A stretch of DNA of 64,000 bases from Astropecten irregularis (taxonomy: Eukaryota > Echinodermata > Asteroidea > Paxillosida > Astropectinidae), in the NCBI GenBank assembly GCA_963971285.1, contig OZ020244.1, forward strand, positions 33,418,001 through 33,482,000, read 5' to 3'. The position numbers were made by a program, and so were the translations under genes. The notes under the pieces are model-generated. The model had not been told where the DNA came from. It made no database searches and saw only the letters and a list, made by a program, of their open reading frames with translations. Below are positions 1-63,043 of the stretch, one piece after another (positions within the stretch are counted from its first letter, which is position 1; every line of letters starts with the position of its first letter).

Positions 1-24
1 TTCGTATGACCTAGGATGCCTTGC

Positions 25-86
25 AGCCCTACGTAGGGTACGATGGGTTATCCTTCTTAACTCGAGTTACGATCGATCGTAAGGCT
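25..86. repeat. Palindrome-dense module, phase 25-86 (shown in U1)
   Basis: Three perfect palindromes lie in 62 bp: CCCTACGTAGGG (27-38), TAACTCGAGTTA (58-69) and TACGATCGATCGTA (68-81). In addition AGCCCTACG (25-33) is the exact reverse complement of CGTAGGGCT (78-86), closing the module as one stem; U1 itself has a mismatch at 82 (A for G), while nearly all other units keep the stem. It could extrude as a cruciform, fold in RNA, or bind a dimeric protein. No function is shown by the sequence alone. Confidence 0.8.
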
Positions 87-116
87 TCGTGAAGTCGACC
101 CTAGTGTGAATCGCAG

Positions 117-147
117 AAAAAAAAATTCCATTAAAAAAATATATATG
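117..147. promoter_or_regulatory. A-run and TATATA element, phase 117-147
   Basis: A run of nine A, attcc, a run of seven A, then TATATATG. On the minus strand the order is GC box (169-160), then TATA (about 145-140), then a T9 run, which is the usual order of a promoter pointing left into the preceding unit. On the plus strand the order would be reversed. A-run length and TTAAA/ATAAA differ between units (for example U5, U9, U34, U37 and U42 have the ATAAA form). A plain A/T-rich stretch is an equally simple reading. Confidence 0.35.
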
Positions 148-152
148 TATCT

Positions 153-175
153 GGGAGGGGGGGCGGGGCTTGGGG
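153..175 (+). repeat. G-quadruplex motif and GC box, phase 153-175
   Basis: In U1 the G-tracts are GGG, GGGGGGG, GGGG and GGGG with loops A, C and CTT, a canonical intramolecular quadruplex pattern. The core GGGGCGGGGC (160-169) is also a GC-box (Sp1-type) match. The same block recurs in every unit, so there are 53 sites at about 1.15-kb spacing. The second G-tract varies from 6 to 13 G and explains most of the length difference between units. U30 has the weakest version. Confidence 0.85.
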
Positions 176-252
176 ACGTCTGCCGGGCCCTTTGCAGCAG
201 AAAATTGCATGGGTTGCGTGCATTATTGGCCATTCCAAACTTTGTGTGTTGT

Positions 253-268
253 ACCTGTTCATTTGAAA
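253..268. repeat. Short perfect hairpin, phase 253-268
   Basis: Arms TTGAAA and TTTCAA around TTGG. It is followed by the palindrome TTTGATCAAA (294-303), which runs into CAAAG|GTAAAT, a good match to a plus-strand splice donor. A further palindrome, CCCCATGGGG, is at 333-342. Confidence 0.6.
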
Positions 269-345
269 TTGGTTTCAAGTGGTACCTTGTTCGTTTGATC
301 AAAGGTAAATTTTAGGGCCTAGTTTTGGGGGTCCCCATGGGGTAC

Positions 346-360
346 ATGCAAATTGCAAAT
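346..360. promoter_or_regulatory. Octamer motif with half repeat, phase 346-360
   Basis: ATGCAAAT (346-353) is a perfect octamer motif, the POU/Oct-1 type site found in distal elements of animal snRNA promoters. It is followed at once by TGCAAAT. On the minus strand it lies about 200 bp upstream of the TATATA element at 140-145. Nearly every unit retains it; U44 carries ATGAAAAT instead. The motif is short, so chance occurrence in one ancestral unit is possible. Confidence 0.4.
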
Positions 361-563
361 GGTTCGGCAAATCGAAAAGAAATTGAAAATGGAATTTTTC
401 ATCTTTATTTTGCCGTATTGGTCGATTGCCTCGGAAACTTATATGAGTATTTCTAAGTATTTTGTTAATGGGCCTTTTTGCGTGGGAGCTTGTGGGAAAT
501 ATTTTAGTGGTCTGCACCCACGTACACTGAAAAATACCCCTCACGCCCTTTAACAATGGTCCC

Positions 564-584
564 ATGCACAAACATATGCACAAA
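564..584. repeat. Short direct repeat, phase 564-584
   Basis: ATGCACAAA occurs twice, at 564-572 and 576-584, 12 bp apart. In U44 the spacer gains four bases (cataattatgc for catatgc). A second direct repeat in the unit is GTACCACT-GAA-GTACCACT at phase 905-923; U1 has one mismatch in its first copy. Confidence 0.6.
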
Positions 585-588
585 GTCA

Positions 589-742
589 GGGAACTTGACC
601 GAATGTTACTGGCTATGCCAAACATAATCAATGACCATTTCATGTCACAACTCCTCTTTGTCCGCACAGACCCTACGGGCTTTTTATGAGCGTGACCTGA
701 ACCAGTCGTTTGGCATAGTCAGTGAAAAGCGGTCAAGTTTCC
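589..742. repeat. 35-bp imperfect inverted repeat with 84-nt loop, phase 589-742
   Basis: Arm 1 is 589-623 and arm 2 is 708-742. The reverse complement of arm 2 aligns to arm 1 without gaps at 29 of 35 positions; one of the six mismatches would be a G-U pair in RNA. Because of the inversion, arm 1 on the plus strand and arm 2 on the minus strand read the same short peptide pattern LDR..L.MPN, which I treat as a by-product. The arms could be remnants of an inverted-repeat transposon or form a hairpin in a transcript. U34 has lost arm 2 through an 81-bp deletion. Confidence 0.8.
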
Positions 743-1057
743 AATCTTCGTAGTATGGTTTGTACACGGGCTCATTGCTAAAGCGCGTGAAGATTTTTTT
801 CAGAGTGCACGCGCAAATGTATTGAGTCATTCAACAATTCTGTGCATGTTCGAACTGCCATGCGACAAATCTGTCGAAATTGCAACCCCGAAAAATAATC
901 GTAAGTACGACTGAAGTACCACTTGTTCATCTTTGACACGACTGAGTAGAAACCGGTATAATGTGCTTTTATGGAATCTTTTGACTTGATTTCAGGCATT
1001 TTGGAGGCGATCCGTTTATTTAGTTTAAATACCGCATTGCTTAGCCGGGGACGTTAG
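726..1057 (+). other. Hypothetical two-exon reading frame with a 95-nt intron (shown in U1)
   Basis: Acceptor-like tttttttcag ends at 803, a donor-like gtaagt starts at 901, an acceptor-like gatttcag ends at 995 with a possible branch site ttgac just upstream, and another donor gtaagt starts at 1118 after gcatg. If 901-995 is removed, the frame open from 726 stays open through 900, joins at 996 and stops at TAG 1055-1057, about 78 codons, with no ATG near its start. It has no domain I recognise. No unit introduces a stop in it. My hand tally across units gave about 10 silent to 15 replacement differences. U46 (gtaact) and U47 (gtattg) each damage one donor; U4, U8 and U13 have gtgagt at the first donor. 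It may be a decayed exon pair, part of a spliced noncoding RNA, or chance. Confidence 0.25.
844..863. repeat. Small hairpin around palindrome GTTCGAAC, phase 844-863
   Basis: Arms GCATG (844-848) and CATGC (859-863) enclose a 10-nt loop; GTTCGAAC (848-855) is itself an 8-bp palindrome. It resembles part of a Pol III B box, but the loop is too long for a tRNA T-arm and no A box or tRNA fold surrounds it. Confidence 0.4.
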
Positions 1058-1084
1058 TGCGAAGGATGAAGTAAAAACTCGTCT

Positions 1085-1264
1085 TAAAAAAAGAGCTCTA
1101 ACGACCCAGTAAGCATGGTAAGTGGCACTACGTAACCTCATTTTATTGTTCGTATGACCTAGGATGCCTTGCAGCCCTACGTAGGGTACGATGGGTTATC
1201 CTTCTTAACTCGAGTTACGATCGATCGTAGGGCCTCGTGAAGTCGACCCTAGTGTGAATCGCAG
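1085..1264 (-). ncRNA. Speculative 180-nt minus-strand Pol III-like transcript spanning the U2/U1 join
   Basis: On the minus strand an octamer (1507-1500), a TATATA stretch (1293-1288) and, about 25-30 nt on, position 1264 as a possible start have the spacing of a type 3 Pol III (U6/7SK-like) promoter. From there the minus strand has no run of four T until the T7 at 1091-1085, which would terminate Pol III. The predicted RNA contains the palindrome module of phase 25-86. The A7 run (T7 on the minus strand) is the same length in nearly all units (8 in U35), whereas other homopolymers vary. No proximal sequence element can be recognised, and the T9 run lies between the TATA and the proposed start. 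This is inference only. Confidence 0.15.
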
Positions 1265-2302
1265 AAAAAAAAATTCCATTAAAAAAATATATATGTATCT
1301 GGGAAGGGGGGGGGGGGCGGGGCTTGGGGACGTCTGCCGGGCCCTTTGCAGCAGAAAATTGCATGGGTTGCGTGCATTATTGGCCATTCCAAACTTTGTG
1401 TGTTGTACCTGTTCATTTGAAATTGGTTTCAAGTGGTACCTTGTTCGTTTGATCAAAGGTAAATTTTAGGGCCTAGTTTTGGGGGTCCCCATGGGGTACA
1501 TGCAAATTGCAAATGGTTCGGCAAATCGAAAAGAAATTGAAAATGGAATTTTTCATCTTTATTTTGCCGTATTGGTCGATTGCCTCGGAAACTTATATGA
1601 GTATTTCTAAGTATTTTGTTAATGGGCCTTTTTGCGTGGGAGCTTGTGGGAAATATTTTAGTGGTCTGCACCCACGTACACTGAAAAATACCCCTCACGC
1701 CCTTTAACAATGGTCCCATGCACAAACATATGCACAAAGTCAGGGAACTTGACCGAATGTTACTGGCTATGCCAAACATAATCAATGACCATTTCATGTC
1801 ACAACTCCTCTTTGTCCGCACAGACCCTACGGGCTTTTTATGAGCGTGACCTGAACCAGTCGTTTGGCATAGTCAGTGAAAAGCGGTCAAGTTTCCAATC
1901 TTCGTAGTATGGTTTGTACACGGGCTCATTGCTAAAGCTCGTGAAGATTTTTTTCAGAGTGCACGCGCAAATGTATTGAGTCATTCAACAATTCTGTGCA
2001 TGTCCGAACTGCCATGCGACAAATCTGTCGAAATTGCAACCCCGAAAAATAATCGTAAGTACCACTGAAGTACCACTTGTTCATCTTTGACACGACTGAG
2101 TAGAAACCGGTATAATGTGCTTTTATGGAATCTTTTGACTTGATTTCAGGCATTTTGGAGGCGATCCGTTTATTTAGTTTAAATACCGCATTGCTTAGCC
2201 GGGGACGTTAGTGCGAAGGATGAAGTAAAAACTCGTCTTAAAAAAAGAGCTCTAACGGCCCAGTAAGCATGGTAAGTGGCACTACGTAACCTCATTTTAT
2301 TG
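1149..2302 (+). repeat. Repeat unit U2
   Basis: 1,154 bp, G-run 12 preceded by gggaa. Marks: gggcctcgtg, aagctcgtg and a private gtccgaac. Its left half resembles the left halves of U7 and U11. Confidence 0.95.
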
Positions 2303-3451
2303 TTCGTATGACCTAGGATGCCTTGCAGCCCTACGTAGGGTACGATGGGTTATCCTTCTTAACTCGAGTTACGATCGATCGTAGGGCTTCGTGAAGTCGA
2401 CCCTAGTGTGAATCGCAGAAAAAAAAATTCCATTAAAAAAATATATATGTATCTGGGAGGGGGGGCGGGGCTTGGGGACGTCTGCCGGGCCCTTTGCAGC
2501 AGAAAATTGCATGGGTTGCGTGCATTATTGGCCATTCCAAACTTTGTGTGTTGTACCTGTTCATTTGAAATTGGTTTCAAGTGGTACCTTGTTCGTTTGA
2601 TCAAAGGTAAATTTTAGGGCCTAGTTTTGGGGGTCCCCATGGGGTACATGCAAATTGCAAATGGTTCGGCAAATCGAAAAGAAATTGAAAATGGAATTTT
2701 TCATCTTTATTTTGCCGTATTGGTCGATTGCCTCGGAAACTTATATGAGTATTTCTAAGTATTTTGTTAATGGGCCTTTTTGCGTGGGAGCTTGTGGGAA
2801 ATATTTTAGTGGTCTGCACCCACGTACACTGAAAAATACCCCTCACGCCCTTTAACAATGGTCCCATGCACAAACATATGCACAAAGTCAGGGAACTTGA
2901 CCGAATGTTACTGGCTATGCCAAACATAATCAATGACCATTTCATGTCACAACTCCTCTTTGTCCGCACAGACCCTACGGGCTTTTTTATGAGCGTGACC
3001 TGAACCAGTCGTTTGGCATAGTCAGTGAAAAGCGGTCAAGTTTCCAATCTTCGTAGTATGGTTTGTACACGGGCTCATTGCTAAAGCGCGTGAAGATTTT
3101 TTTCAGAGTGCACGCGCAAATGTATTGAGTCATTCAACAATTCTGTGCATGTTCGAACTGCCATGCGACAAATCTGTCGAAATTGCTACCCCGAAAAATA
3201 ATCGTAAGTACCACTGAAGTACCACTTGTTCATCTTTGACACGACTGAGTAGAAACCGGTATAATGTGCTTTTATGGAATCTTTTGACTTGATTTCAGGC
3301 ATTTTGGAGGCGATCCGTTTATTTAGTTTAAATACCGCATTGCTTAGCCGGGGACGTTAGTGCGAAGGATGAAGTAAAAACTCGTCTTAAAAAAAGAGCT
3401 CTAACGGCCCAGTAAGCATGGTAAGTGGCACTACGTAACCTCATTTTATTG
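2303..3451 (+). repeat. Repeat unit U3
   Basis: 1,149 bp, G-run 7. An extra T (gggcttttttatg) and gctacccc for gcaacccc, both shared with U12. The gctacc change puts a TAG into the 73-codon minus-strand frame. Confidence 0.95.
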
Positions 3452-4602
3452 TTCGTATGACCTAGGATGCCTTGCAGCCCTACGTAGGGTACGATGGGTT
3501 ATCCTTTTTAACTCGAGTTACGATCGATCGTAGGGCTTCGTGAAGTCGACCCTAGTGTGAATCGCAGAAAAAAAAATTCCATTAAAAAAATATATATGTA
3601 TCTGGGAGGGGGGGGGGCGGGGCTTGGGGACGTCTGCCGGGCCCTTTGCAGCAGAAAATTGCATGGGTTGCGTGCATTATTGGCCATTCCAAACTTTGTG
3701 TGTTGTACCTGTTCATTTGAAATTGGTTTCAAGTGGTACCTTGTTCGTTTGATCAAAGGTAAATTTTAGGGCCTAGTTTTGGGGGTCCCCATGGGGTACA
3801 TGCAAATTGCAAATGGTTCGGCAAATCGAAAAGAAATTGAAAATGGAATTTTTCATCTTTATTTTGCCGTATTGGTCGATTGCCTCGGAAACTTATATGA
3901 GTATTTCTAAGTATTTTGTTAATGGGCCTTTTTGCGTGGGAGCTTGTGGGAAATATTTTAGTGGTCTGCACCCACGTACACTGAAAAATACCCCTCACGC
4001 CCTTTAACAATGGTCCCATGCACAAACATATGCACAAAGTCAGGGAACTTGACCGAATGTTACTGGCTATGCCAAACATAATCAATGACCATTTCATGTC
4101 ACAACTCCTCTTTGTCCGCACAGACCCTACGGGCTTTTTATGAGCGTGACCTAAACCAGTCGTTTGGCATAGTCAGTGAAAAGCGGTCAAGTTTCCAATC
4201 TTCGTAGTATGGTTTGTACACGGGCTCATTGCTAAAGCGCGTGAAGATTTTTTTCAGAGTGCACGCGCAAATGTATTGAGTCATTCAACAATTCTGTGCA
4301 TGTTCGAACTGCCATGCGACAAATCTGTCGAAATTGCAACCCCGAAAAATAATCGTGAGTACCACTGAAGTACCACTTGTTCATCTTTGACACGACTGAG
4401 TAGAAACCGGTATAATGTGCTTTTATGGAATCTTTTGACTTGATTTCAGGCATTTTGGAGACGATCCGTTTATTTAGTTTAAATACCGCATTGCTTAGCC
4501 GGGGACGTTAGTGCGAAGGATGAAGTAAAAACTCGTCTTAAAAAAAGAGCTCTAACGGCCCAGTAAGCATGGTAAGTGGCACTACGTAACCTCATTTTAT
4601 TG
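3452..4602 (+). repeat. Repeat unit U4
   Basis: 1,151 bp, G-run 10. Marks: cctttttaac, cctaaacc, donor variant gtgagt and gagacgatcc, all shared with U8 and U13. Confidence 0.95.
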
Positions 4603-5756
4603 TTCGTATGACCTAGGATGCCTTGCAGCCCTACGTAGGGTACGATGGGTTATCCTTCTTAACTCGAGTTACGATCGATCGTAGGGCTTCGTGAAGTCGA
4701 CCCTAGTGTGAATCGCAGAAAAAAAAATTCCATAAAAAAAATATATATGTATCTGGGAGGGGGGGGGGGGGCGGGGCTTGGGGACGTCTGCCGGGCCCTT
4801 TGCAGCAGAAAATTGCATGGGTTGCGTGCATTATTGGCCATTCCAAACTTTGTGTGTTGTACCTGTTCATTTGAAATTGGTTTCAAGTGGTACCTTGTTC
4901 GTTTGATCAAAGGTAAATTTTAGGGCCTAGTTTTGGGGGTCCCCATGGGGTACATGCAAATTGCAAATGGTTCGGCAAATCGAAAAGAAATTGAAAATGG
5001 AATTTTTCATCTTTATTTTGCCGTATTGGTCGATTGCCTCGGAAACTTATTTGAGTATTTCTAAGTATTTTGTTAATGGGCCTTTTTGCGTGGGAGCTTG
5101 TGGGAAATATTTTAGTGGTCTGCACCCACGTACACTGAAAAATACCCCTCACGCCCTTTAACAATGGTCCCATGCACAAACATATGCACAAAGTCAGGGA
5201 ACTTGACCGAATGTTACTGGCTATGCCAAACATAATCAATGACCATTTCATGTCACAACTCCTCTTTGTCCGCACAGACCCTACGGGCTTTTTATGAGCG
5301 TGACCTGAACCAGTCGTTTGGCATAGTCAGTGAAAAGCGGTCAAGTTTCCAATCTTCGTAGTATGGTTTGTACACGGGCTCATTGCTAAAGCGCGTGAAG
5401 ATTTTTTTCAGAGTGCACGCGCAAATGTATTGAGTCATTCAACAATTCTGTGCATGTTCGAACTGCCATGCGACAAATCTGTCGAAATTGCAACCCCGAA
5501 AAATAATCGTAAGTACCACTGAAGTACCACTTGTTCATCTTTGACACGACTGAGTAGAAACCGGTATAATGTGCTTTTATGGAATCTTTTGACTTGATTT
5601 CAGGCATTTTGGAGGCGATCCGTTTATTTAGTTTAAATACCGCATTGCTTAGCCGGGGACGTTAGTGCGAAGGATGAAGTAAAAACTCGTCTTAAAAAAA
5701 GAGCTCTAACGGCCCAGTAAGCATGGTAAGTGGCACTACGTAACCTCATTTTATTG
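4603..5756 (+). repeat. Repeat unit U5
   Basis: 1,154 bp, G-run 13, the longest, matched exactly in U9. Marks: ccataaaa and ttatttgag, shared with U9, U14, U37 and U39. Confidence 0.95.
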
Positions 5757-6905
5757 TTCGTATGACCTAGGATGCCTTGCAGCCCTACGTAGGGTACGAT
5801 GGGTTATCCTTCTTAACTCGAGTTACGATCGATCGTAGGGCTTCGTGAAGTCGACCCTAGTGTGAATCGCAGAAAAAAAAATTCCATTAAAAAAATATAT
5901 ATGTATCTGGGAGGGGGGGGCGGGGCTTGGGGACGTCTGCCGGGCCCTTTGCAGCAGAAAATTGCATGGGTTGCGTGCATTATTGGCCATTCCAAACTTT
6001 GTGTGTTGTACCTGTTCATTTGAAATTGGTTTCAAGTGGTACCTTGTTCGTTTGATCAAAGGTAAATTTTAGGGCCTAGTTTTGGGGGTCCCCATGGGGT
6101 ACATGCAAATTGCAAATGGTTCGGCAAATCGAAAAGAAATTGAAAATGGAATTTTTCATCTTTATTTTGCCGTATTGGTCGATTGCCTCGGAAACTTATA
6201 TGAGTATTTCTAAGTATTTTGTTAATGGGCCTTTTTGCGTGGGAGCTTGTGGGAAATATTTTAGTGGTCTGCACCCACGTACACTGAAAAATACCCCTCA
6301 CGCCCTTTAACAATGGTCCCATGCACAAACATATGCACAAAGTCAGGGAACTTGACCGAATGTTACTGGCTATGCCAAACATAATCAATGACCATTTCAT
6401 GTCACAACTCCTCTTTGTCCGCACAGACCCTACGGGCTTTTTATGAGCGTGACCTGAACCAGTCGTTTGGCATAGTCAGTGAAAAGCGGTCAAGTTTCCA
6501 ATCTTCGTAGTATGGTTTGTACACGGGCTCATTGCTAAAGCGCGTGAAGATTTTTTTCAGAGTGCACGCGCAAATGTATTGAGTCATTCAACAATTCTGT
6601 GCATGTTCGAACTGCCATGCGACAAATCTGTCGAAATTGCAACCCCGAAAAATAATCGTAAGTACGACTGAAGTACCACTTGTTCATCTTTGACACGACT
6701 GAGTAGAAACCGGTATAATGTGCTTTTATGGAATCTTTTGACTTGATTTCAGGCATTTTGGAGGCGATCCGTTTATTTAGTTTAAATACCGCATTGCTTA
6801 GCCGGGGACGTTAGTGCGAAGGATGAAGTAAAAACTCGTCTTAAAAAAAGAGCTCTAACGACCCAGTAAGCATGGTAAGTGGCACTACGTAACCTCATTT
6901 TATTG
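5757..6905 (+). repeat. Repeat unit U6
   Basis: 1,149 bp, G-run 8. Marks: gtacgactg and aacgaccc. Pairs with U10 at an offset of 4,604 bp. Confidence 0.95.
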
Positions 6906-35682: not shown

Positions 35683-36287
35683 CAGAGTTTTTCGGAACTA
35701 GAGATAGATGCTATGTGTTGCGTCTGGCCAGATGAAAGGAAAGGGGCTACCTGTACATTTTATAGATGTTGTGGCGCATCCTGGAAGGGGGGGGGGGGGT
35801 TGTTGGAAGCATGATGGGTATAGACATGTGCAAATCCTATTATGCGTGGATATCTCAACAATAACGAAAATTATAAATAACTTCCTAGGGCCCTTGGGTT
35901 TTTTGGTACGTGTTTGAATTGTGCTTAAAACAAACGTTTACATGGTGTTCTTGAGGTGAAGGATATGCAGGATGGTAAGAATGTGGATAAGATATCCCTC
36001 CCCGCCAGTGACCAATGACACCATGGACCGTGTGTTGAGTGGCCTGACATAAGAGTAACGTTTATATTTGGAAAAAGTCTGTTGACCTCCGAAGTATTAT
36101 ACAGTATTTAAGATAATTATTATTTTTGTTATCAATGAGGGTCCAAACGTGAAGCATTTGTGGAGGAGTACATGTATGATCCAGCAGGAAGTATACTCCC
36201 CTCGCAATGGCGATTGCTTCAATGACATTTAATTATGTATGCATGTCCTCACTCACAAGTGAAGCAAGTATGGGAGCAAGGGAACAA

Positions 36288-36377
36288 CCTCTCGAGAGGA
36301 GTATAGGGGGAAGTGTCGTGGCAGTATTGGAATGCCCTTATAGGTACACTCCCCTGAAGAGTGTACCTATAAGGGCA
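36288..36377. repeat. Perfect 19-bp hairpin with nearby palindrome
   Basis: The arms 36,333-36,351 and 36,359-36,377 are perfect reverse complements of 19 bp around a 7-nt loop (ccctgaa). A 12-bp palindrome, CCTCTCGAGAGG, lies just upstream at 36,288-36,299. It could be a foldback element remnant or a hairpin RNA; the stem is short for an animal miRNA precursor. Confidence 0.8.
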
Positions 36378-36549
36378 ATGTGAACATCAGAATTCTGCAC
36401 CAGATGCATGCGTATTTACTGTACGTTGTAAATTAATGACCCGAAATTTCCCGATATTTGAGTATCTTTGGCTTTATAAATCAACGTTTTCTCTAAGCAT
36501 GACACAGGCTGCTAAATTTGATACGAGATGTACACGTAGGGTAAAATAG

Positions 36550-36760
36550 CCATGATTCGGACACCTAAGCAATTTTGGATTATTTTGACCTTCTTAATGT
36601 TTGTTTCTCTCAACTATTTTCACTTATGAACAACAAAGTGAAGTTATTATATCCAGGTTGATATTTTATGAAAGTTTTTTGTGTCCTTGAAATGAAATTG
36701 ACTTGAAAAATAACCTTAATTTTAGCCATGATTCGGACACCCTGTCCATGATTCGGACAC
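36550..36760 (+). repeat. 15-bp motif ccatgattcggacac in three copies
   Basis: Exact copies at 36,550-36,564, 36,726-36,740 and 36,746-36,760. The first two share the preceding tag and a following c, and are 176 bp apart, as if bounding a short element or one satellite monomer. The segment between them is A/T-rich with no other structure I can see. Confidence 0.75.
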
Positions 36761-37062
36761 ACATGAAAAAATGCTGAAAAAAACATGCCTTGCAAAATAA
36801 AATAATACCTCATCAATGCAGTGGGCAAATTCTTAAGTTGCCACCATTTATTTTCCCAAAAAAGTGTAATTTGACTGCTCAGAACTCAAAAAAGAAAATT
36901 GGTGCATGGACACATCCAGGACTTATTTTCAGAGTTTTTGAAGGCAATGCCCTGATAAAAACGGGCCATTTCGGCCATATCGTGAAATTGAACTCCATTC
37001 CGTCCGTGCGCTCCCGTGCGCACCACTCTAGTGTGTACAAAAGTCAATGGCGTAGATATTAG

Positions 37063-37106
37063 ACTCCAGCCATTGACGAAATGAACGGCAGTCAATGGAG
37101 TGGAGT
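37063..37106. repeat. Imperfect hairpin built on tcaatgg motifs
   Basis: actccagccattgac (37,063-37,077) pairs with gtcaatggagtggagt (37,091-37,106) with one bulged base. gtcaatggc also occurs upstream near 37,043 and can pair with gccattgac, and tcaatggagtg recurs near 37,211, so several alternative foldbacks are possible. Confidence 0.5.
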
Positions 37107-37606
37107 GTAAATTCGGGAGATGCCGGCATTTCTTCTAAAATGGAACATACACAAGCCACAAAATTATTTTGGCATATTTTTTAGCGACTCTGGGGGCCTG
37201 GGTAGCATAAATCAATGGAGTGTCAGAAATCATGGCACATATACCTTGGCTTCTGGACAAGGAAATTTATGCAAGTTCAAATTGGCAACGCAGCTCTCCA
37301 TAATTTGGACCTTGATGGTATATTGATGAACAGAATATACCAGTTTCATATAAAAAAAAATCCTGTTAAATTTAATGAATTTTCTGTGTTTTTAAATAAT
37401 GCATTTTCTCACAACCCTATTTTTAACAGGGCTCTTAAGTTAAGGATCACACTTTTTTTTTTACTTTTAATCAGAAAATGTGACATTTTATAATAGGAAT
37501 TGGATCATGTAAAGTATGTGGCACCGTTGTTTAGTCTTATAGGCCCTAGTGCACCTATCGGAAAGAATTCCACTGATGACCATAATTTGTGCACAACTCT
37601 ATAGAA

Positions 37607-37620
37607 CCAACAGAGGGCGT
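37607..37620 (+). promoter_or_regulatory. CTCF-like core match
   Basis: ccaacagagggcgt matches 12 of 14 positions of the animal CTCF core CCACYAGRKGGCRC. A match in the opposite orientation is at 38,118-38,131. Similar strings also occur at the ends of animal transposons, so this may instead be an element end. Confidence 0.2.
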
Positions 37621-37801
37621 TTTGAGCAAACTGGCTTTGTACAGTTTGTAGGTAAAAGAACCCTGTAAAACTCACTTTTCAGATATTCTACGCAAGTTTT
37701 CCACCCTTGAATTTGAGGTTTATCATAATTTGTATCCAATAAGTTAACTCTTGGAGGATATAATCCTTTTTCCGTAATGGTGATCAGTGGAATTCTTTCC
37801 C

Positions 37802-37890
37802 ATTTGCATTTGCACATTTCCGAGCATCCGAATGCTTCCGAAAACGTTGCTTCCGAAGACCTGCCGAAGATGACGTTCGTTGTGACGTCA
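37802..37890. promoter_or_regulatory. Cluster of octamer, CCGAA repeats and CRE
   Basis: ATTTGCAT (octamer) at 37,802-37,809, then five close variants of YCCGAA between 37,818 and 37,869, then the palindromic CRE TGACGTCA at 37,883-37,890. Such spacing is typical of promoters or enhancers in animals, but no transcript or TATA element is evident next to it. Confidence 0.35.
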
Positions 37891-38117
37891 CAGGTCATTT
37901 AAATAAAGTAATAAAATCCACTTTTTGGCTCAGGTATATACTGTTTCGTATGTTTTTCAGCGTTTCCAACCCTCTTGAAACCATTCTAAGGCGTTCCATG
38001 CGATACAATGTCAAAATGTTGACTACAACATACATATCTGGGGCATTTTTGGTCATTACCGGATTTTTTTCTACGAAAGTAATTAAGAGTGTTCCGATAA
38101 AGCCCTAGTCGTGTGCA

Positions 38118-38134
38118 GCGCCACCTACCGGTGG
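38118..38134 (-). promoter_or_regulatory. Second CTCF-like match near the right end of the interruption
   Basis: gcgccacctaccgg (38,118-38,131) matches the reverse-complement CTCF core at 12 of 14 positions, opposite in orientation to the copy at 37,607. The same bases form a short palindromic ccacc/ggtgg pair. It lies 18 bp before the array resumes. A transposon terminus is the alternative. Confidence 0.2.
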
Positions 38135-38151
38135 TTCCGGGAACATTGCGT

Positions 38152-39294
38152 CTAGGATGCCTTGCAGCCCTACGTAGGGTACGATGGGTTATCCTTCTTA
38201 ACTCGAGTTACGATCGATCGTAGGGCTTCGTGAAGTCGACCCTAGTGTGAATCGCAGAAAAAAAAATTCCATTAAAAAAATATATATGTATCTGGGAGGG
38301 GGGGGGGGGCGGGGCTTGGGGACGTCTGCCGGGCCCTTTGCAGCAGAAAATTGCATGGGTTGCGTGCATTATTGGCCATTCCAAACTTTGTGTGTTGTAC
38401 CTGTTCATTTGAAATTGGTTTCAAGTGGTACCTTGTTCGTTTGATCAAAGGTAAATTTTAGGGCCTAGTTTTGGGGGTCCCCATGGGGTACATGCAAATT
38501 GCAAATGGTTCGGCAAATCGAAAAGAAATTGAAAATGGAATTTTTCATCTTTATTTTGCCGTATTGGTCGATTGCCTCGGAAACTTATATGAGTATTTCT
38601 AAGTATTTTGTTAATGGGCCTTTTTGCGTGGGAGCTTGTGGGAAATATTTTAGTGGTCTGCACCCACGTACACTGAAAAATACCCCTCACGCCCTTTAAC
38701 ACTGGTCCCATGCACAAACATATGCACAAAGTCAGGGAACTTGACCGAATGTTACTGGCTATGCCAAACATAATCAATGACCATTTCATGTCACAACTCC
38801 TCTTTGTCCGCACAGACCCTACGGGCTTTTTATGAGCGTGACCTGAACCAGTCGTTTGGCATAGTCAGTGAAAAGCGGTCAAGTTTCCAATCTTCGTAGT
38901 ATGGTTTGTACACGGGCTCATTGCTAAAGCGCGTGAAGATTTTTTTCAGAGTGCACGCGCAAATGTATTGAGTCATTCAACAATTCTGTGCATTTTCGAA
39001 CTGCCATGCGACAAATCTGTCGAAATTGCAACCCCGAAAAATAATCGTAAGTACCACTGAAGTACCACTTGTTCATCTTTGACACGACTGAGTAGAAACC
39101 GGTATAATGTGCTTTTATGGAATCTTTTGACTTGATTTCAGGCATTTTGGAGGCGATCCGTTTATTTAGTTTAAATACCGCATTGCTTAGCCGGGGAAGT
39201 TAGTGCGAAGGATGAAGTAAAAACTCGTCTTAAAAAAAGAGCTCTAACGGCCCAGTAAGCATGGTAAGTGGCACTACGTAACCTCATTTTATTG
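38152..39294 (+). repeat. Repeat unit U32, lacking phase 1-10
   Basis: 1,143 bp, G-run 12. aacactggtcc as in U31; private gcattttcg and ggggaagtta. Confidence 0.95.
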
Positions 39295-40446
39295 TTCGTA
39301 TGACCTAGGATGCCTTGCAGCCCTACGTAGGGTACGATGGGTTATCCTTCTTAACTCGAGTTACGATCGATCGTAGGGCTTCGTGAAGTCGACCCTAGTG
39401 TGAATCGCAGAAAAAAAAATTCCATTAAAAAAATATATATGTATCTGGGAGGGGGGGGGGGCGGGGCTTGGGGACGTCTGCCGGGCCCTTTGCAGCAGAA
39501 AATTGCATGGGTTGCGTGCATTATTGGCCATTCCAAACTTTGTGTGTTGTACCTGTTCATTTGAAATTGGTTTCAAGTGGTACCTTGTTCGTTTGATCAA
39601 AGGTAAATTTTAGGGCCTAGTTTTGGGGGTCCCCATGGGGTACATGCAAATTGCAAATGGTTCGGCAAATCGAAAAGAAATTGAAAATGGAATTTTTCAT
39701 CTTTATTTTGCCGTATTTTTCGATTGCCTCGGAAACTTATATGAGTATTTCTAAGTATTTTGTTAATGGGCCTTTTTGCGTGGGAGCTTGTGGGAAATAT
39801 TTTAGTGGTCTGCACCCACGTACACTGAAAAATACCCCTCACGCCCTTTAACAATGGTCCCATGCACAAACATATGCACAAAGTCAGGGAACTTGACCGA
39901 ATGTTACTGGCTATGCCATACATAATCAATGACCATTTCATGTCACAACTCCTCTTTGTCCGCACAGACCCTACGGGCTTTTTATGAGCGTGACCTGAAC
40001 CAGTCGTTTGGCATAGTCAGTGAAAAGCGGTCAAGTTTCCAATCTTCGTAGTATGGTTTGTACACGGGCTCATTGCTAAAGCGCGTGAAGATTTTTTTCA
40101 GAGTGCACGCGCAAATGTATTGAGTCATTCAACAATTCTGTGCATGTTCGAACTGCCATGCGACAAATCTGTCGAAATTGCAACCCCGAAAAATAATCGT
40201 AAGTACCACTGAAGTACCACTTGTTCATCTTTGACACGACTGAGTAGAAACCGGTATAATGTGCTTTTATGGAATCTTTTGACTTGATTTCAGGCATTTT
40301 GGAGGCGATCCGTTTATTTAGTTTAAATACCGCATTGCTTAGCCGGGGACGTTAGTGCGAAGGATGAAGTAAAAACTCGTCTTAAAAAAAGAGCTCTAAC
40401 GGCCCAGTAAGCATGGTAAGTGGCACTACGTAACCTCATTTTATTG
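39295..40446 (+). repeat. Repeat unit U33
   Basis: 1,152 bp, G-run 11. Private: gtatttttcg and gccatacataat. Confidence 0.95.
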
Positions 40447-41512
40447 TTCGTATGACCTAGGATGCCTTGCAGCCCTACGTAGGGTACGATGGGTTATCCT
40501 TCTTAACTCGAGTTACGATCGATCGTAGGGCTTCGTGAAGTCGACCCTAGTGTGAATCGCAGAAAAAAAAATTCCATAAAAAAAATATATATGTATCTGG
40601 GAGGGGGGGCGGGGCTTGGGGACGTCTGCCGGGCCCTTTGCAGCAGAAAATTGCATGGGTTGCGTGCATTATTGGCCATTCCAAATTTTGTGTGTTGTAC
40701 CTGTTCCTTTGAAATTGGTTTCAAGTGGTACCTTGTTCGTTTGATCAAAGGTAAATTTTAGGGCCTAGTTTGGGGGTCCCCATGGGGTACATGCAAATTG
40801 CAAATGGTTCGGCAAATCGAAAAGAAATTGAAAATGGAATTTTTCATCTTTATTTTGCCGTATTGGTCGATTGCCTCGGAAACTTATATGAGTATTTCTA
40901 AGTATTTTGTTAATGGGCCTTTTTGCGTGGGAGCTTGTGGGAAATATTTTAGTGGTCTGCACCCACGTACACTGAAAAATACCCCTCACGCCCTTTAACA
41001 ATGGTCCCATGCACAAACATATGCACAAAGTCAGGGAACTTGACCGAATGTTACTGGCTATGCCAAACATAATCAATGACCATTTCATGTCACAACTCCT
41101 CTTTGTCCGCACAGACCCTACGGGCTTTTTATGAGCGTGACCTGAACCGCGTGAAGATTTTTTTCAGAGTGCACGCGCAAATGTATTGAGTCATTCAACA
41201 ATTCTGTGCATGTTCGAACTGCCATGCGACAAATCTGTCGAAATTGCAACCCCGAAAAATAATCGTAAGTACCACTGAAGTACCACTTGTTCATCTTTGA
41301 CACGACTGAGTAGAAACCGGTATAATGTGCTTTTATGGAATCTTTTGACTTGATTTCAGGCATTTTGGAGGCGATCCGTTTATTTAGTTTAAATACCGCA
41401 TTGCTTAGCCGGGGACGTTAGTGCGAAGGATGAAGTAAAAACTCGTCTTAAAAAAAGAGCTCTAACGGCCCAGTAAGCATGGTAAGTGGCACTACGTAAC
41501 CTCATTTTATTG
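40447..41512 (+). repeat. Repeat unit U34, with an 81-bp internal deletion
   Basis: 1,066 bp, G-run 7. At 41,149 the sequence jumps from ctgaac to cgcgtgaag, removing about phase 702-782, including inverted-repeat arm 2. ccaaattttg, gttcctttg and gtttgggggtcc are shared with U36. Confidence 0.95.
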
Positions 41513-42668
41513 TTCGTATGACCTAGGATGCCTTGCAGCCCTACGTAGGGTACGATGGGTTATCCTTCTTAACTCGAGTTACGATCGATCGTAGGGCTTC
41601 GTGAAGTCGACCCTAGCTAGTGTGAATCGCAGAAAAAAAAATTCCATTAAAAAAATATATATGTATCTGGGAGGGGGGGGGGCGGGGCTTGGGGACGTCT
41701 GCCGGGCCCTTTGCAGCAGAAAATTGCATGGGTTGCGTGCATTATTGGCCATTCCAAACTTTGTGTGTTGTACCTGTTCATTTGAAATTGGTTTCAAGTG
41801 GTACCTTGTTCGTTTGATCAAAGGTAAATTTTAGGGCCTAGTTTTTGGGGTCCCCATGGGGTACATGCAAATTGCAAATGGTTCGGCAAATCGAAAAGAA
41901 ATTGAAAATGGAATTTTTCATCTTTATTTTGCCGTATTGGTCGATTGCCTCGGAAACTTATATGAGTATTTCTAAGTATTTTGTTAATGGGCCTTTTTGC
42001 GTGGGAGCTTGTGGGAAATATTTTAGTGGTCTGCACCCACGTACACTGAAAAATACCCCTCACGCCCTTTAACAATGGTCCCATGCACAAACATATGCAC
42101 AAAGTCAGGGAACTTGACCGAATGTTACTGGCTATGCCAAACATAATCAATGACCATTTCATGTCACAACTCCTCTTTGTCCGCACAGACCCTACGGGCT
42201 TTTTATGAGCGTGACCTGAACCAGTCGTTTGGCATAGTCAGTGAAAAGCGGTCAAGTTTCCAATCTTCGTAGTATGGTTTGTACGCGGGCTCATTGCTAA
42301 AGCGCGTGAAGATTTTTTTCAGAGTGCACGCGCAAATGTATTGAGTCATTCAACAATTCTGTGCATGTTCGAACTACCATGCGACAAATCTGTCGAAATT
42401 GCAACCCCGAAAAATAATCGTAAGTACCACTGAAGTACCACTTGTTCATCTTTGACACGACTGAGTAGAAACCGGTATAATGTGCTTTTATGGAATCTTT
42501 TGACTTGATTTCAGGCATTTTGGAGGCGATCCGTTTATTTAGTTTAAATACCGCATTGCTTAGCCGGGGACGTTAGTGCGAAGGATGAAGTAAAAACTCG
42601 TCTTAAAAAAAAGAGCTCTAACGGCCCAGTAAGCATGGTAAGTGGCACTACGTAACCTCATTTTATTG
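41513..42668 (+). repeat. Repeat unit U35
   Basis: 1,156 bp, G-run 10. ccctagctagtg (4-bp CTAG gain), gtttttggggtcc and gtacgcggg, all shared with U41; private gaactaccatg and an A8 run near the end. Confidence 0.95.
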
Positions 42669-55313: not shown

Positions 55314-56463
55314 TTCGTATGACCTAGGATGCCTTGCAGCCCTACGTAGGGTACGATGGGTTATCCTTCTTAACTCGAGTTACGATCGATCGTAGGGCTT
55401 CGTGAAGTCGACCCTAGTGTGAATCGCAGAAAAAAAAATTCCATAAAAAAATATATATGTATCTGGGAGGGGGGGGGGGCGGGGCTTGGGGACGTCTGCC
55501 GGGCCCTTTGCAGCAGAAAATTGCATGGGTTGCGTGCATTATTGGCCATTCCAAACTTTGTGTGTTGTACCTGTTCATTTGAAATTGGTTTCAAGTGGTA
55601 CCTTGTTCGTTTGATCAAAGGTAAATTTTAGGGCCTAGTTTTGGGGGTCCCCATGGGGTACATGCAAATTGCAAATGGTTCGGCAAATCGAAAAGAAATT
55701 GAAAATTGAATTTTTCATCTTTATTTTGCCGAATTGGTCGATTGCCTCGGAAACTTATATGAGTATTTCTAAGTATTTTGTTAATGGGCCTTTTTGCGTG
55801 GGAGCTTGTGGGAAATATTTTAGTGGTCTGCACCCACGTACACTGAAAAATACCCCTCACGCCCTTTAACAATGGTCCCATGCACAAACATATGCACAAA
55901 GTCAGGGAACTTGACCGAATGTTACTGGCTATGCCAAACATAATCAATGACCATTTCATGTCACAACTCCTCTTTGTCCGCACAGACCCTACGGGCTTTT
56001 TATGAGCGTGACCTGAACCAGTCGTTTGGCATAGTCAGTGAAAAGCGGTCAAGTTTCCAATCTTCGTAGTATGGTTTGTACACGGGCTCATTGCTAAAGC
56101 GCGTGAAGATTTTTTTCAGAGTGCACGCGCAAATGTATTGAGTCATTCAACAATTCTGTGCATGTTCGAACTGCCATGCGACAAATCTGTCGAAATTGCA
56201 ACCCCGAAAAATAATCGTAAGTACCACTGAAGTACCACTTGTTCATCTTTGACACGACTGAGTAGAAACCGGTATAATGTGCTTTTATGGAATCTTTTGA
56301 CTTGATTTCAGGCATTTTGGAGGCGATCCGTTTATTTAGTTTAAATACCGCATTGCTTAGCCGGGGACGTTAGTGCGAAGGATGAAGTAAAAACTCGTCT
56401 TAAAAAAAGAGCTCTAACGGCCCAGTAAGCATGGTATTGGCACTACGTAACCTCATTTTATTG
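55314..56463 (+). repeat. Repeat unit U47
   Basis: 1,150 bp, G-run 11. aaaattgaattt; private gccgaattgg; ggtattggcac destroys the second candidate splice donor. Confidence 0.95.
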
Positions 56464-57613
56464 TTCGTATGACCTAGGATGCCTTGCAGCCCTACGTAGG
56501 GTACGATGGGTTATCCTTCTTAACTCGAGTTACGATCGATCGTAGGGCTTCGTGAAGTCGACCCTAGTGTGAATCGCAGAAAAAAAATTCCATTAAAAAA
56601 ATATATATGTATCTGGGAGGGGGGGGGGCGGGGCTTGGGGACGTCTGCCGGGCCCTTTGCAGCAGAAAATTGCATGGGTTGCGTGCATTATTGGCCATTC
56701 CAAACTTTGTGTGTTGTACCTGTTCATTTGAAATTGGTTTCAAGTGGTACCTTGTTCGTTTGATCAAAGGTAAATTTTAGGGCCTAGTTTTGGGGGTCCC
56801 CATGGGGTACATGCAAATTGCAAATGGTTCGGCAAATCGAAAAGAAATTGAAAATGGAATTTTTCATCTTTATTTTGCCGTATTGGTCGATTGCCTCGGA
56901 AACTTATATGAGTATTTCTAAGTATTTTGTTAATGGGCCTTTTTGCGTGGGAGCTTGTGGGAAATATTTTAGTGGTCTGCACCCACGTACACTGAAAAAT
57001 ACCCCTCACGCCCTTTAACAATGGTCCCATGCACAAACATATGCACAAAGTCAGGGAACTTGACCGAATGTTACTGGCTATGCCAAACATAATCAATGAC
57101 CATTTCATGTCACAACTCCTCTTTGTCCGCACAGACCCTACGGGCTTTTTATGAGCGTGACCTGAACCAGTCGTTTGGCATAGTCAGTGAAAAGCGGTCA
57201 AGTTTCCAATCTTCGTAGTATGGTTTGTACACGGGCTCATTGCTAAAGCGCGTGAAGATTTTGTTCAGAGTGCACGCGCAAATGTATTGAGTCATTCAAC
57301 AATTCTGTGCATGTTCGAACTGCCATGCGACAAATCTGTCGAAATTGCAACCCCGAAAAATAATCGTAAGTACCACTGAAGTACCACTTGTTCATCTTTG
57401 ACACGACTGAGTAGAAACCGGTATAATGTGCTTTTATGGAATCTTTTGACTTGATTTCAGGCATTTTGGAGGCGATCCGTTTATTTAGTTTAAATACCGC
57501 ATTGCTTAGCCGGGGACGTTAGTGCGAAGGATGAAGTAAAAACTCGTCTTAAAAAAAGAGCTCTAACGGCCCAGTAAGCATGGTAAGTGGCACTACGTAA
57601 CCTCATTTTATTG
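56464..57613 (+). repeat. Repeat unit U48
   Basis: 1,150 bp, G-run 10. One A fewer before attcc (as in U17 and U18); gattttgttcag as in U29, U50 and U52. Confidence 0.95.
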
Positions 57614-58760
57614 TTCGTATGACCTAGGATGCCTTGCAGCCCTACGTATGGTACGATGGGTTATCCTTCTTAACTCGAGTTACGATCGATCGTAGGGCCT
57701 CGTGAAGTCGACCCTAGTGTGAATCGCAGAAAAAAAAATTCCATAAAAAAAATATATATGTATCCGGTAGGGGGGGCGGGGCTTGGGGACGTCTGCCGGG
57801 CCCTTTGCAGCAGAAAATTGCATGTGTTGCGTGCATTTTTGGCCATTCCAAACTTTGTGTGTTGTACCTGTTCATTTGAAATTGGTTTCAATTGGTACCT
57901 TGTTCGTTTGATCAAAGGTAAATTTTAGGGCCTAGTTTTGGGGGTCCCCATGGGGTACATGCAAATTGCAAATGGTTCGGCAAATCGAAAGAAATTGAAA
58001 ATGGTATTTTTCATCTTTATTTTGCCGTATTGGTCGATTGCCTCGGAAACTTATATGAGTATTTCTAAGTATTTTGTTAATGGGCCTTTTTGCGTGGGAG
58101 CTTGTGGGAAATATTTTAGTGGTCTGCACCCACGTACACTGAAAAATACCCCTCACGCCCTTTAACAATGGTCCCATGCACAAACATATGCACAAAGTCA
58201 GGGAACTTGACCGAATGTTACTGGCTATGCCAAACATAATCAATGACCATTTCATGTCACAACTCCTCTTTGTCCGCACAGACCTTAAGGGCTTTTTATG
58301 AGCGTGACCTGAACCAGTCGTTTGGCATAGTCAGTGAAAAGCGGTCAAGTTTCCAATCTTCGTAGTATGGTTTGTACACGGGCTCATTGCTAAAGCGCGT
58401 GAAGATTTTTTTCAGAGTGCACGCGCAAATGTATTGAGTCATTCAACAATTCTGTGCATGTTCGAACTGCCATGCGACAAATCTGTCGAAATTGCAACCC
58501 CGAAAAATAATCGTAAGTACCACTGAAGTACCACTTGTTCATCTTTGACACGACTGAGTAGAAACCGGTATAATGTGCTTTTATGGAATCTTTTGACTTG
58601 ATTTCAGGCATTTTGGAGGCGATCCGTTTATTTAGTTTAAATACCGCATTGCTTAGCCGGGGACGTTAGTGCGAAGGATGAAGTAAAAACTCGTCTTAAA
58701 AAAAGAGCTCTAACGGCCCAGTAAGCATGGTAAGTGGCACTACGTAACCTCATTTTATTG
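57614..58760 (+). repeat. Repeat unit U49
   Basis: 1,147 bp, G-run 7. Many changes: acgtatggtacg, gggcctcg, atccggtagg, gcatgtgttgcg, gcatttttggcc, caattggtacc, atggtattttt and gaccttaaggg; one A missing in cgaaagaaattg (as in U28). Confidence 0.95.
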
Positions 58761-59909
58761 TTCGTATGACCTAGGATGCCTTGCAGCCCTACGTAGGGTA
58801 CGATGGGTTATCCTTCTTAACTCGAGTTACGATCGATCGTAGGGCTTCGTGAAGTCGACCCTAGTGTGAATCGCAGAAAAAAAAATTCCATGAAAAAAAT
58901 ATATATGTATCTGGGAGGGGGGGGCGGGGCTTGGGGACGTCTGCCGGGCCCTTTGCAGCAGAAAATTGCATGGGTTGCGTGCATTATTGGCCATTCCAAA
59001 CTTTGTGTGTTGTACCTGTTCATTTGAAATTGGTTTCAAGTGGTACCTTGTTCGTTTGATCAAAGGTAAATTTTAGGGCCTAGTTTTGGGGGTCCCCATG
59101 GGGTACATGCAAATTGCAAATGGTTCGGCAAATCGAAAAGAAATTGAAAATGGAATTTTTCATCTTTATTTTGCCGTATTGGTCGATTGCCTCGGAAACT
59201 TATATGAGTATTTCTAAGTATTTTGTTAATGGGCCTTTTTGCGTGGGAGCTTGTGGGAAATATTTTAGTGGTCTGCACCCACGTACACTGAAAAATACCC
59301 CTCACGCCCTTTAACAATGGTCCCATGCACAAACATATGCACAAAGTCAGGGAACTTGACCGAATGTTACTGGCTATGCCAAACATAATCAATGACCATT
59401 TCATGTCACAACTCCTCTTTGTCCGCACAGACCCTACGGGCTTTTTATGAGCGTGACCTGAACCAGTCGTTTGACATAGTCAGTGAAAAGCGGTCAAGTT
59501 TCCAATCTTCGTAGTATGGTTTGTACACGGGCTCATTGCTAAAGCGCGTGAAGATTTTGTTCAGAGTGCACGCGCAAATGTATTGAGTCATTCAACAATT
59601 CTGTGCATGTTCGAACTGCCATGCGACAAATCTGTCGAAATTGCAACCCCGAAAAATAATCGTAAGTACCACTGAAGTACCACTTGTTCATCTTTGACAC
59701 GACTGAGTAGAAACCGGTATAATGTGCTTTTATGGAATCTTTTGACTTGATTTCAGGCATTTTGGAGGCGATCCGTTTATTTAGTTTAAATACTGCATTG
59801 CTTAGCCGGGGACGTTAGTGCGAAGGATGAAGTAAAAACTCGTCTTAAAAAAAGAGCTCTAACGGCCCAGTAAGCATGGTAAGTGGCACTACGTAACCTC
59901 ATTTTATTG
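58761..59909 (+). repeat. Repeat unit U50
   Basis: 1,149 bp, G-run 8. ccatgaaaa (shared with U51), gattttgttcag and atactgcatt; private gtttgacatag. Confidence 0.95.
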
Positions 59910-61057
59910 TTCGTATGACCTAGGATGCCTTGCAGCCCTCCGTAGGGTACGATGGGTTATCCTTCTTAACTCGAGTTACGATCGATCGTAGGGCTTCGTG
60001 AAGTCGACCCTAGTGTGAATCGCAGAAAAAAAAATTCCATGAAAAAAATATATATGTATCTGGGAGGGGGGGCGGGGCTTGGGGACGTCTGCCGGGCCCT
60101 TTGCAGCAGAAAATTGCATGGGTTGCGTGCATTATTGGCCATTCCAAACTTTGTGTGTTGTACCTGTTCATTTGAAATTGGTTTCAAGTGGTACCTTGTT
60201 CGTTTGATCAAAGGTAAATTTTAGGGCCTAGTTTTGGGGGTCCCCATGGGGTACATGCAAATTGCAAATGGTTCGGCAAATCGAAAAGAAATTGAAAATG
60301 GAATTTTTCATCTTTATTTTGCCGTATTGGTCGATTGCCTCGGAAACTTATATGAGTATTTCTAAGTATTTTGTTAATGGGCCTTTTTGCGTGGGAGCTT
60401 GTGGGAAATATTTTAGTGGTCTGCACCCACGTACACTGAAAAATACCCCTCACGCCCTTTAACAATGGTCCCATGCACAAACATATGCACAAAGTCAGGG
60501 AACTTGACCGAATGTTACTGGCTATGCCAAACATAATCAATGACCATTTCATGTCACAACTCCTCTTTGTCCACACAGACCCTACGGGCTTTTTATGAGC
60601 GTGACCTGAACCAGTCGTTTGGCATAGTCAGTGAAAAGCGGTCAAGTTTCCAATCTTCGTAGTATGGTTTGTACACGGGCTCATTGCAAAAGCGCGTGAA
60701 GATTTTTTTCAGAGTGCACGCGCAAATGTATTGAGTCATTCAACAATTCTGTGCATGTTCGAACTGCCATGCGACAAATCTGTCGAAATTGCAACCCCGA
60801 AAAATAATCGTAAGTACCACTGAAGTACCACTTGTTCATCTTTGACACGACTGAGTAGAAACCGGTATAATGTGCTTTTATGGAATCTTTTGACTTGATT
60901 TCAGGCATTTTGGAGGCGATCCGTTTATTTAGTTTAAATACCGCATTGCTTAGCCGGGGACGTTAGTGCGAAGGATGAAATAAAAACTAGTCTTAAAAAA
61001 AGAGCTCTAACGGCCCAGTAAGCATGGTAAGTGGCACTACGTAACCTCATTTTATTG
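59910..61057 (+). repeat. Repeat unit U51
   Basis: 1,148 bp, G-run 7. ccatgaaaa; private agccctccgtaggg (breaks one palindrome), tccacacag, attgcaaaagcg and gatgaaataaaaactag. Confidence 0.95.
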
Positions 61058-62205
61058 TTCGTATGACCTAGGATGCCTTGCAGCCCTACGTAGGGTACGA
61101 TGGGTTATCCTTCTTAACTCGAGTTACGATCGATCGTAGGGCTTCGTGAAGTCGACCCTAGTGTGAATCGAAGAAAAAAAAATTCCATAAACAAAATATA
61201 TATGTATCTGGGAGGGGGGGCGGGGCTTGGGGACGTCTGCCGGGCCCTTTGCAGCAGAAAATTGCATGGGTTGCGTGCATTATTGGCCATTCCAAACTTT
61301 GTCTGTTGTACCTGTTCATTTGAAATTGGTTTCAAGTGGTACCTTGTTCGTTTGATCAAAGGTAAATTTTAGGGCCTAGTTTTGGGGGTCCCCATGGGGT
61401 ACATGCAAATTGCAAATGGTTCGGCAAATCGAAAAGAAATTGAAAATGGAATTTTTCATCTTTATTTTGCCGTATTGGTCGATTGCCTCGGAAACTTATA
61501 TGAGTATTTCTAAGTATTTTGTTAATGGGCCTTTTTGCGTGGGAGCTTGTGGGAAATATTTTAGTGGTCTGCACCCACGTACACTGAAAAATACCCCTCA
61601 CGCCCTTTAACAATGGTCCCATGCACAAACATATGCACAAAGTCAGAGAAATTGACCGAATGTTACTGGCTATGCCAAACATAATCAATGACCATATCAT
61701 GTCACAACTCCTCTTTGTCCGCACAGACCCTACGGGCTTTTTATGAGCGTGACCTGAACCAGTCGTTTGGCATAGTCAGTGAAAAGTGGTCAAGTTTCCA
61801 ATCTTCGTAGTATGGTTTGTACACGGGCTCATTGCTAAAGCGCGTGAAGATTTTGTTCAGAGTGCACGCGCAAATGTATTGAGTCATTCAACAATTCTGT
61901 GCATGTTCGAACTGCCATGCGACAAATCTGTCGAAATTGCAACCCCGAAAAATAATCGTAAGTACCACTGAAGTACCACTTGTTCATCTTTGACACGACT
62001 GAGTAGAAACCGGTATAATGTGCTTTTATGGAATCTTTTGACTTGATTTCAGGCATTTTGGAGGCGATCCGTTTATTTAGTTTAAATACTGCATTGCTTA
62101 GCCGGGGACGTTAGTGCGAAGGATGAAGTAAAAACTCGTCTTAAAAAAAGAGCTCTAACGGCCCAGTAAGCATGGTAAGTGGCACTACGTAACCTCATTT
62201 TATTG
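61058..62205 (+). repeat. Repeat unit U52
   Basis: 1,148 bp, G-run 7. Private: aatcgaagaaa, ccataaacaaaat, ttgtctgttg, cagagaaattg, gaccatatcatg and gaaaagtggtc; also gattttgttcag and atactgcatt. Confidence 0.95.
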
Positions 62206-63043
62206 TTCGTATGACCTAGGATGCCTTGCAGCCCTACGTAGGGTACGATGGGTTATCCTTCTTAACTCGAGTTACGATCGATCGTAGGGCTTCGTGAAGT
62301 CGACCCTAGTGTGAATCGCAGAAAAAAAAATTCCATAAAAAAAATATATATGTATCTGGGAGGGGGGGGGGCGGGGCTTGGGGACGTCTGCCGGGCCCTT
62401 TGCAGCAGAAAATTGCATGGGTTGAGTGCATTATTGGCCATTCCAAACTTTGCGTGTTGTACCTGTTCATTTGAAATTCGTTTCAAGTGGTACCTTGTTC
62501 GTTTGATCACAGGTAAATTTTAGGGCCTAGTTTTGGGGGTCCCCATGGGGTACATGCAAATTGCAAATGGTTCGGCAAATCGAAAAGAAATTGAAAATGG
62601 AATGTTTCATCTTTATTTTGCCGTATTGGTCGATTGCCTCGGAAACTTATATGAGTATTTCTAAGTATTTTGTTAATGGGCCTTTTTGCGTGGGAGCTTG
62701 TGGGAAATATTTTAGTGGTCTGCACCCACGTACACTGAAAAATACCCCTCACGCCCTTTAACAATGGTCCCATGCACAAACATATGCACAAAGTCAGGGA
62801 ACTTGACCGAATGTTACTGGCTATGCCAAACATAATCAATGACCATTTCATGGCACAACTCCTCTTTGTCCGCACAGACCCTACGGGCTTTTTATGAGCG
62901 TGACCTGAACCAGTCGTTTGGCATAGTCAGTGAAAAGCGGTCAAGTTTCCAATCTTCGTAGTATGGTTTGTACACGGGCTCATTGCTAAAGCGCGTGAAG
63001 ATTTTTTTCAGAGTGCACGCGCAAATGTATTGAGTCATTCAAC
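62206..63043 (+). repeat. Repeat unit U53, truncated at phase 838
   Basis: G-run 10. Ends inside cattcaac, then unrelated sequence. Private: gggttgagtgc, ttgcgtgttg, aaattcgtttc, gatcacagg, ggaatgtttc and catggcacaac. This is the right end of the array. Confidence 0.95.

Follow-up and report, generated by a model that had tools for sequence, protein, structure and literature searches.

Tetris, in Drosophila virilis, is a modular fold-back element found in rearranged copies, whose internal repeats of ~220 bp (TIR-220) lie within its terminal inverted repeats and have grown into satellite arrays of up to 66 copies (PMC4079207). As summarised in that account, the element has no conserved open reading frames, its arrays are flanked by element parts, and unequal crossing over is proposed for their growth. 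Satellites derived from miniature inverted-repeat transposable elements (MITEs) include Xstir and miDNA4 of Xenopus and HindIII of bivalves; a short non-autonomous inverted-repeat element is described as having given the monomer, which recombination then multiplied and homogenised (PMC12628747, PMC9659126). DXZ4, a macrosatellite whose kilobase-scale units form a single large tandem array, is described as CTCF-bound and subject to changes in chromatin state (PMC3491370, PMC3081327). Here we describe a 1.15-kb macrosatellite in Astropecten irregularis. It fills most of a 64,000-nucleotide stretch of contig C1 (OZ020244.1; C1:33418001-33482000, hereafter the window) in a 475.7-Mb assembly of 168 contigs, and was followed 140 kb leftward and 60 kb rightward of the window. 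Compared by description and not by sequence, the array resembles Tetris/TIR-220 in its origin, as a satellite apparently derived from a fold-back-like element with element parts beside it; membership of the Tetris family is not claimed. Unlike Tetris, it consists of one array of ~110 units of 1.15 kb, in each of which a fold-back-like core is joined with a short inverted-repeat element. It differs from the MITE-derived satellites in that the short element provides only ~100 of 1148 bp, the remainder being another repeat. The likeness to DXZ4 concerns unit size and array form, and no relationship is claimed.

The consensus unit measures 1148 bp and is repeated head to tail across the window. 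A 20-base anchor, with up to 3 mismatches allowed, occurs 52 times, and unit-by-unit comparison resolves the window into 50 full units, 2 nearly complete ones and 1 partial one, in agreement with the count given in a preliminary description of this DNA. One of the nearly complete units (38152-39295) is without its first 10 bases, owing to a neighbouring insertion, and the other (40447-41513) carries an internal deletion of ~75 bp; the partial unit (62206-63043) comprises 835 unit bases. Intact neighbouring units are spaced 1147-1156 bp apart, and the 49 other full units of the window are 98.69-99.83% identical to the first (mean 99.22%). The preliminary description also had the units fill the window and the array run from position 1 to 63043. 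Neither statement holds: positions 35683-38151 are an unrelated insertion, positions 63044-64000 are the start of a 9.64-kb element inserted at that site, and the array resumes past this element. The whole array extends from C1:33393115 to C1:33530180 (~137 kb including insertions), 33.4 Mb along the 39.0-Mb contig. Among the 115 unit matches longer than 150 bp that were kept, 103 are full-length, are 98.0-100% identical to the first unit of the window (unit 1) and were used for the unit statistics; several partial units complete the array. Head-to-tail arrangement over tens of kilobases at such identity makes the locus a macrosatellite. The array and the parts of unit 1 are as follows.

1 to 63043, + strand: satellite array inside the window, interrupted by the insertion at 35683-38151 and continuing beyond both window ends.
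2 to 101, + strand: MITE-like remnant of a short inverted-repeat element of ~144 bp, bearing palindromic motifs and recognised by comparison with flank copies.
153 to 175, + strand: G-rich run of variable length, from a motif scan and unit variation.
346 to 353, + strand: octamer ATGCAAAT, present in 101/103 units.
369 to 1148, + strand: core from a dispersed repeat, with long matches of 78-92% identity on C10, C11, C14, C19 and C24.
524 to 809, + strand: imperfect palindrome with arms of ~83-100 bp that are 75-80% identical, including the 35-bp inverted repeat at 590-623/708-742.
901 to 995, + strand: splice-like signals, with a GTAAGT donor at 901 and a CAG acceptor that ends near 995.

All of the motifs named in the preliminary description (palindromes, quadruplex G-run, octamer, 35-bp inverted repeat and splice-type signals) could be located in the consensus unit. 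The palindromic motifs are TACGTA at 30 and 1129, CTCGAG at 61 and CGATCGATCG at 70. The G-run at 153 fits a four-run quadruplex pattern in 101/103 units and lies, with an A/T tract, in a spacer (unit 120-368), pieces of which also occur at four of the dispersed loci described below (L003, L005, L006 and L007). GTAAGT is found at 901 and 1118, with both occurrences present in 98/103 units, and TTTCAGG near 995 in all 103.

The core (unit 369-1148) is present outside the array as a dispersed repeat. Its relatives come from a genome DNA search with 7 scored candidates; this search passes over very common words and missed the array itself. Two of the loci, L003 and L006, each hold two core copies separated by ~1.85-1.89 kb, and four cores, partial or longer, are present in L004; tandem copies thus exist outside the array. 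The entire palindrome 524-809 aligns with L004 in inverted orientation at 70% identity. Because the dispersed copies share extra sequence before position 369 and after position 119 that is absent from the unit, the array unit is probably a shortened version of a longer, older repeat. The occurrence of the monomer outside the array is as expected for a satellite of transposon origin, to which the sequence comparisons point here. L003 and L006 (C14:21404138-21415373) lie ~7.5 kb apart and are 91% identical over 3.7 kb; the pair represents an older two-core form that was duplicated locally.

The start of the unit has a different source. Positions 2-101 of the consensus are 93% identical over 100 bp to a form deduced from copies in the left flank, which measures 144 bp and has 16-bp inverted ends (it was built from an alignment, and single copies vary at the outermost bases). 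Searched with the whole unit, 115 kb of left flank yielded 8 matches to 2-101, of which 7 measure at least 63 bp and the eighth 34 bp. The remainder of the unit has no match there, which indicates that the short element and the core are independent repeats. The deduced form, used as query, matched the left flank 10 times, in 7 cases over more than 80 bp, and had no match in the right flank (11.8 kb). Its small size, terminal inverted repeats and many copies are those of a MITE, and we regard it as a candidate of this class. The element begins with CAGGG, a start also found in hAT elements, but no 8-bp target-site duplication was seen by eye in four near-end-to-end copies, whose exact ends are not fixed, and we therefore place it in no superfamily. 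The short repeat has an A-rich end, which was also considered as the tail of a short interspersed nuclear element; this reading was dropped because the flank copies terminate in an inverted repeat. The palindromic motifs at 30-79 fall inside the remnant. Several further repeats in the left flank (C1:33278001-33392875, L011-L022) are common to L001, L002, L003, L005, L006 and L007 among the matches listed. With these other dispersed repeats recurring beside it, the array adjoins repeat-rich sequence.

Both edges of the array resemble the dispersed repeat. On the left, unit 836-1086 is present as an inverted copy (84% identity) that stops 7 bp before unit position 374. At the right edge, the sequence past unit position 306 is followed by ~92-97 bp that match a segment of L005 (86%) and L007 (89%); in both loci this segment comes after the core, and it is not part of the unit. 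Since the array appears to run into its parent repeat on either side, it most likely grew within one copy, and probably arose inside an old copy of the dispersed repeat.

Bins 101-200 are the most variable part of the unit. With the low-complexity stretch at unit positions 108-178 masked, the mean pairwise difference among the units is 7.25 per 1088 columns, and units differ from the consensus at 0-11 columns in a star-like pattern. Adjacent units differ at 6.29 columns, compared with 7.24 after shuffling (0/5000 shuffles as low). Diversity is lowest at the left end, whose ten outermost units are near-identical (mean 0.6 differences), and highest in the right part. There are 83 distinct sequences among the 103 full units; one sequence is present 9 times at the left end, and runs of identical units come back at a lag of 4. 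Three units are internally deleted, and two units at the right end, four units apart, carry the same 799/870 deletion. Neighbouring units are therefore being homogenised, as in concerted evolution. The shared deletion, the lag-4 runs and the neighbour similarity together form the pattern expected of block duplication by unequal exchange. Replication-based amplification could equally well have begun the expansion.

We consider it likely that the array is a young, locally amplified satellite built from old mobile DNA, and that its motifs have no maintained role. In the order of events that we infer, a mobile, dispersed fold-back-like repeat would have been joined to the short inverted-repeat element, and the joined form would have come to be present at several genomic places, some of which held short runs of at least two copies. 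Within one copy on C1, a 1.15-kb segment may then have been duplicated in tandem and have expanded to ~110 units through unequal exchange or replication-based amplification. Homogenisation by block duplication would have been ongoing, and the insertions would have come later. The hairpin, the palindromes and the splice-like and promoter-like motifs would be inherited or due to chance, without a maintained role in the array. The preliminary description held that the unit has more structure than a simple satellite needs. The structure is indeed present, but a simpler explanation is that it was inherited with the component repeats: with the palindromic motifs coming from the short element and the large inverted repeat from the dispersed repeat, the structure would have come with the parts. 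The locus offers a kilobase-scale satellite still embedded in sequence related to its source repeat, with diverged relatives that reveal which features of the unit are inherited. It also calls for caution, as palindromes, quadruplex runs and promoter-like motifs in satellite units may be leftovers and not signs of function.

Several observations weigh against a young satellite built from old mobile DNA with motifs of no maintained role. We recovered no parent element that was complete, with both its ends and a target-site duplication, and the fold-back label rests on inverted partial core copies at two places, the left edge of the array and L005, the only places where such copies were found. 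The CpG observed/expected ratio is 0.97 and CpG transitions affect 10/102 sites, compared with 42/392, without excess; these figures leave no trace of methylation-linked silencing. Finally, variation along the core is more clustered among the copies than in permuted columns. This was assessed in 8 of the 13 aligned copies (L001, L003b, L004b, L006 and L006b were omitted as close duplicates or short), using only columns with at least 6 copies. The spread of window means was reached in 0/3000 permutations for windows of 20, with p 0.0003 for windows of 30 and p 0.006 for windows of 50, and the lowest single core window was not unusual (p 0.07-0.10). The low-variation windows are unit 400-429 and, close to the splice-like signals, 905-949 and 983-1012. 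This clustering is a hint of past constraint: the uneven conservation of the core could stem from constraint that acted on the parent repeat until it dispersed, from uneven insertions and deletions, or from an ancestry shared by some of the copies.

The same low-variation windows bear on the possibility that the units are tandem non-coding RNA genes (spliced-leader, small nuclear RNA-like or other), each with a promoter composed of the octamer and a TATA-like box and a transcript with splice-like signals. The spliced-leader form was prompted by GTAAGT. We judge all these forms clearly unlikely. Unit 905-949 and 983-1012 are among the least variable windows, the octamer, the double GTAAGT and TTTCAGG are retained in 101/103, 98/103 and 103/103 units, and the acceptor CAG is kept in 11/11 of the aligned copies that cover it. 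However, the donor GTAAGT at 901 is intact in 7/11 and broken in 4/11 of the covering copies (array consensus included), and the octamer is absent in the unit's orientation from the seven dispersed loci L001-L007, its reverse word being found once in L002 and once in L004, elsewhere in those loci. Within the array, and with unit positions 108-178 masked, variable sites are not significantly rarer in the core (128/887) than in the spacer (34/190; Fisher p 0.22), and variation within the array does not track variation among the copies (rho 0.18, p 0.39). No Rfam family was matched at gathering score in the window, none at E<=5 in window 1-2400, and no tRNA was found by a tRNA search; a known RNA gene cluster was therefore set aside. 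A protein-coding unit was likewise set aside, because the 3 searched of the 7 unit frames of at least 60 aa gave no Pfam family over the cut-off and weak matches below it only. These negative results bear out the view of the preliminary description that the macrosatellite is without a recognisable gene, and the signs of a maintained function in the unit are weak.

A long hairpin RNA cluster, giving endogenous small interfering RNAs (siRNAs) or PIWI-interacting RNAs (piRNAs) with the palindrome as its working part, is in our view distinctly improbable. Unit 500-830 does fold at -127.8 kcal/mol (z -9.8, 100 shuffles), and a hairpin that is kept should make the arms of the same copy more alike than arms taken across copies. 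In 10 of the 13 aligned copies, which have both arms >70 bp and include some close relatives, arm identity was 0.841 within copies and 0.845 between copies (permutation P 0.85), and few of the copies compared have arms less alike than those of the array (0.80). The arms show no compensatory changes of the kind that mark a structured RNA gene, each changing on its own, and a hairpin maintained by selection was rejected.

A role in chromosome structure, centromeric or heterochromatic, would rest on the bulk of the array and not on its sequence, and 137 kb of homogeneous tandem DNA would suit it. We consider such a role very unlikely, given a position at 33.4 of 39.0 Mb on C1 and a genome search that gave only diverged single or few copies elsewhere (it scored 7 candidates and missed the array itself, as noted above, which makes the lack of further arrays weak evidence). 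It seems very doubtful indeed that the array is a transcribed locus of ~110 hairpin units with splice-like signals, serving as a memory of its source element for a small-RNA pathway of the host. An assembly artefact, in which a short true array was inflated by the assembler, is extremely improbable: the unit sequence present 9 times at the left end makes the exact copy number uncertain, but the 83 distinct sequences, the two separate insertions, the three internally deleted units and the gradient of similarity along the array speak against it.

The two insertions into the array that touch the window are the following.

35683 to 38151, no strand assigned: unrelated insertion of 2.47 kb at unit position ~11, with a target duplication of at most 1 bp.
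63044 to 64000, + strand: the 957 bp at the left end of a DIRS-like (tyrosine-recombinase) retrotransposon, 9.64 kb long in all, which splits a unit at 835/836.

The 2.47-kb insertion interrupts one unit close to where its short-element remnant begins. The inserted sequence contains a perfect 19-bp inverted repeat at 36333-36377 and a 19-bp motif that occurs three times (36547, 36723 and, at 84%, 36743). No Pfam match was obtained for the 2 frames searched of the 24 listed.

The DIRS-like element spans C1:33481044-33490686 in full (L023). A 10-bp sequence at its left end reappears inverted 6 bp from its right end, and a tandem repeat of ~45 bp lies near the left end (63418-63593). One of its frames matches Phage_integrase (E 5e-07) and ALOG (E 7.7e-16), both over the cut-off, which points to a predicted tyrosine recombinase; another gives RVT_1 at E 9.6e-06 and RT_RNaseH at E 0.0058, neither of which reaches its curated cut-off. 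The element is consistent with a DIRS-type retrotransposon.

Elsewhere in the assembly, C131:32162-33484 encodes COX1 in an open frame of 552 aa without stops, and the COX1 copy on C168 has 10 TGA codons; C131 is perhaps a bacterial contig, from a symbiont or a contaminant. A further COX1 stretch, with 7 TGA codons, is found at C25:9951047-9952018, 9.95 Mb along a large contig, and is perhaps a nuclear copy of mitochondrial DNA.

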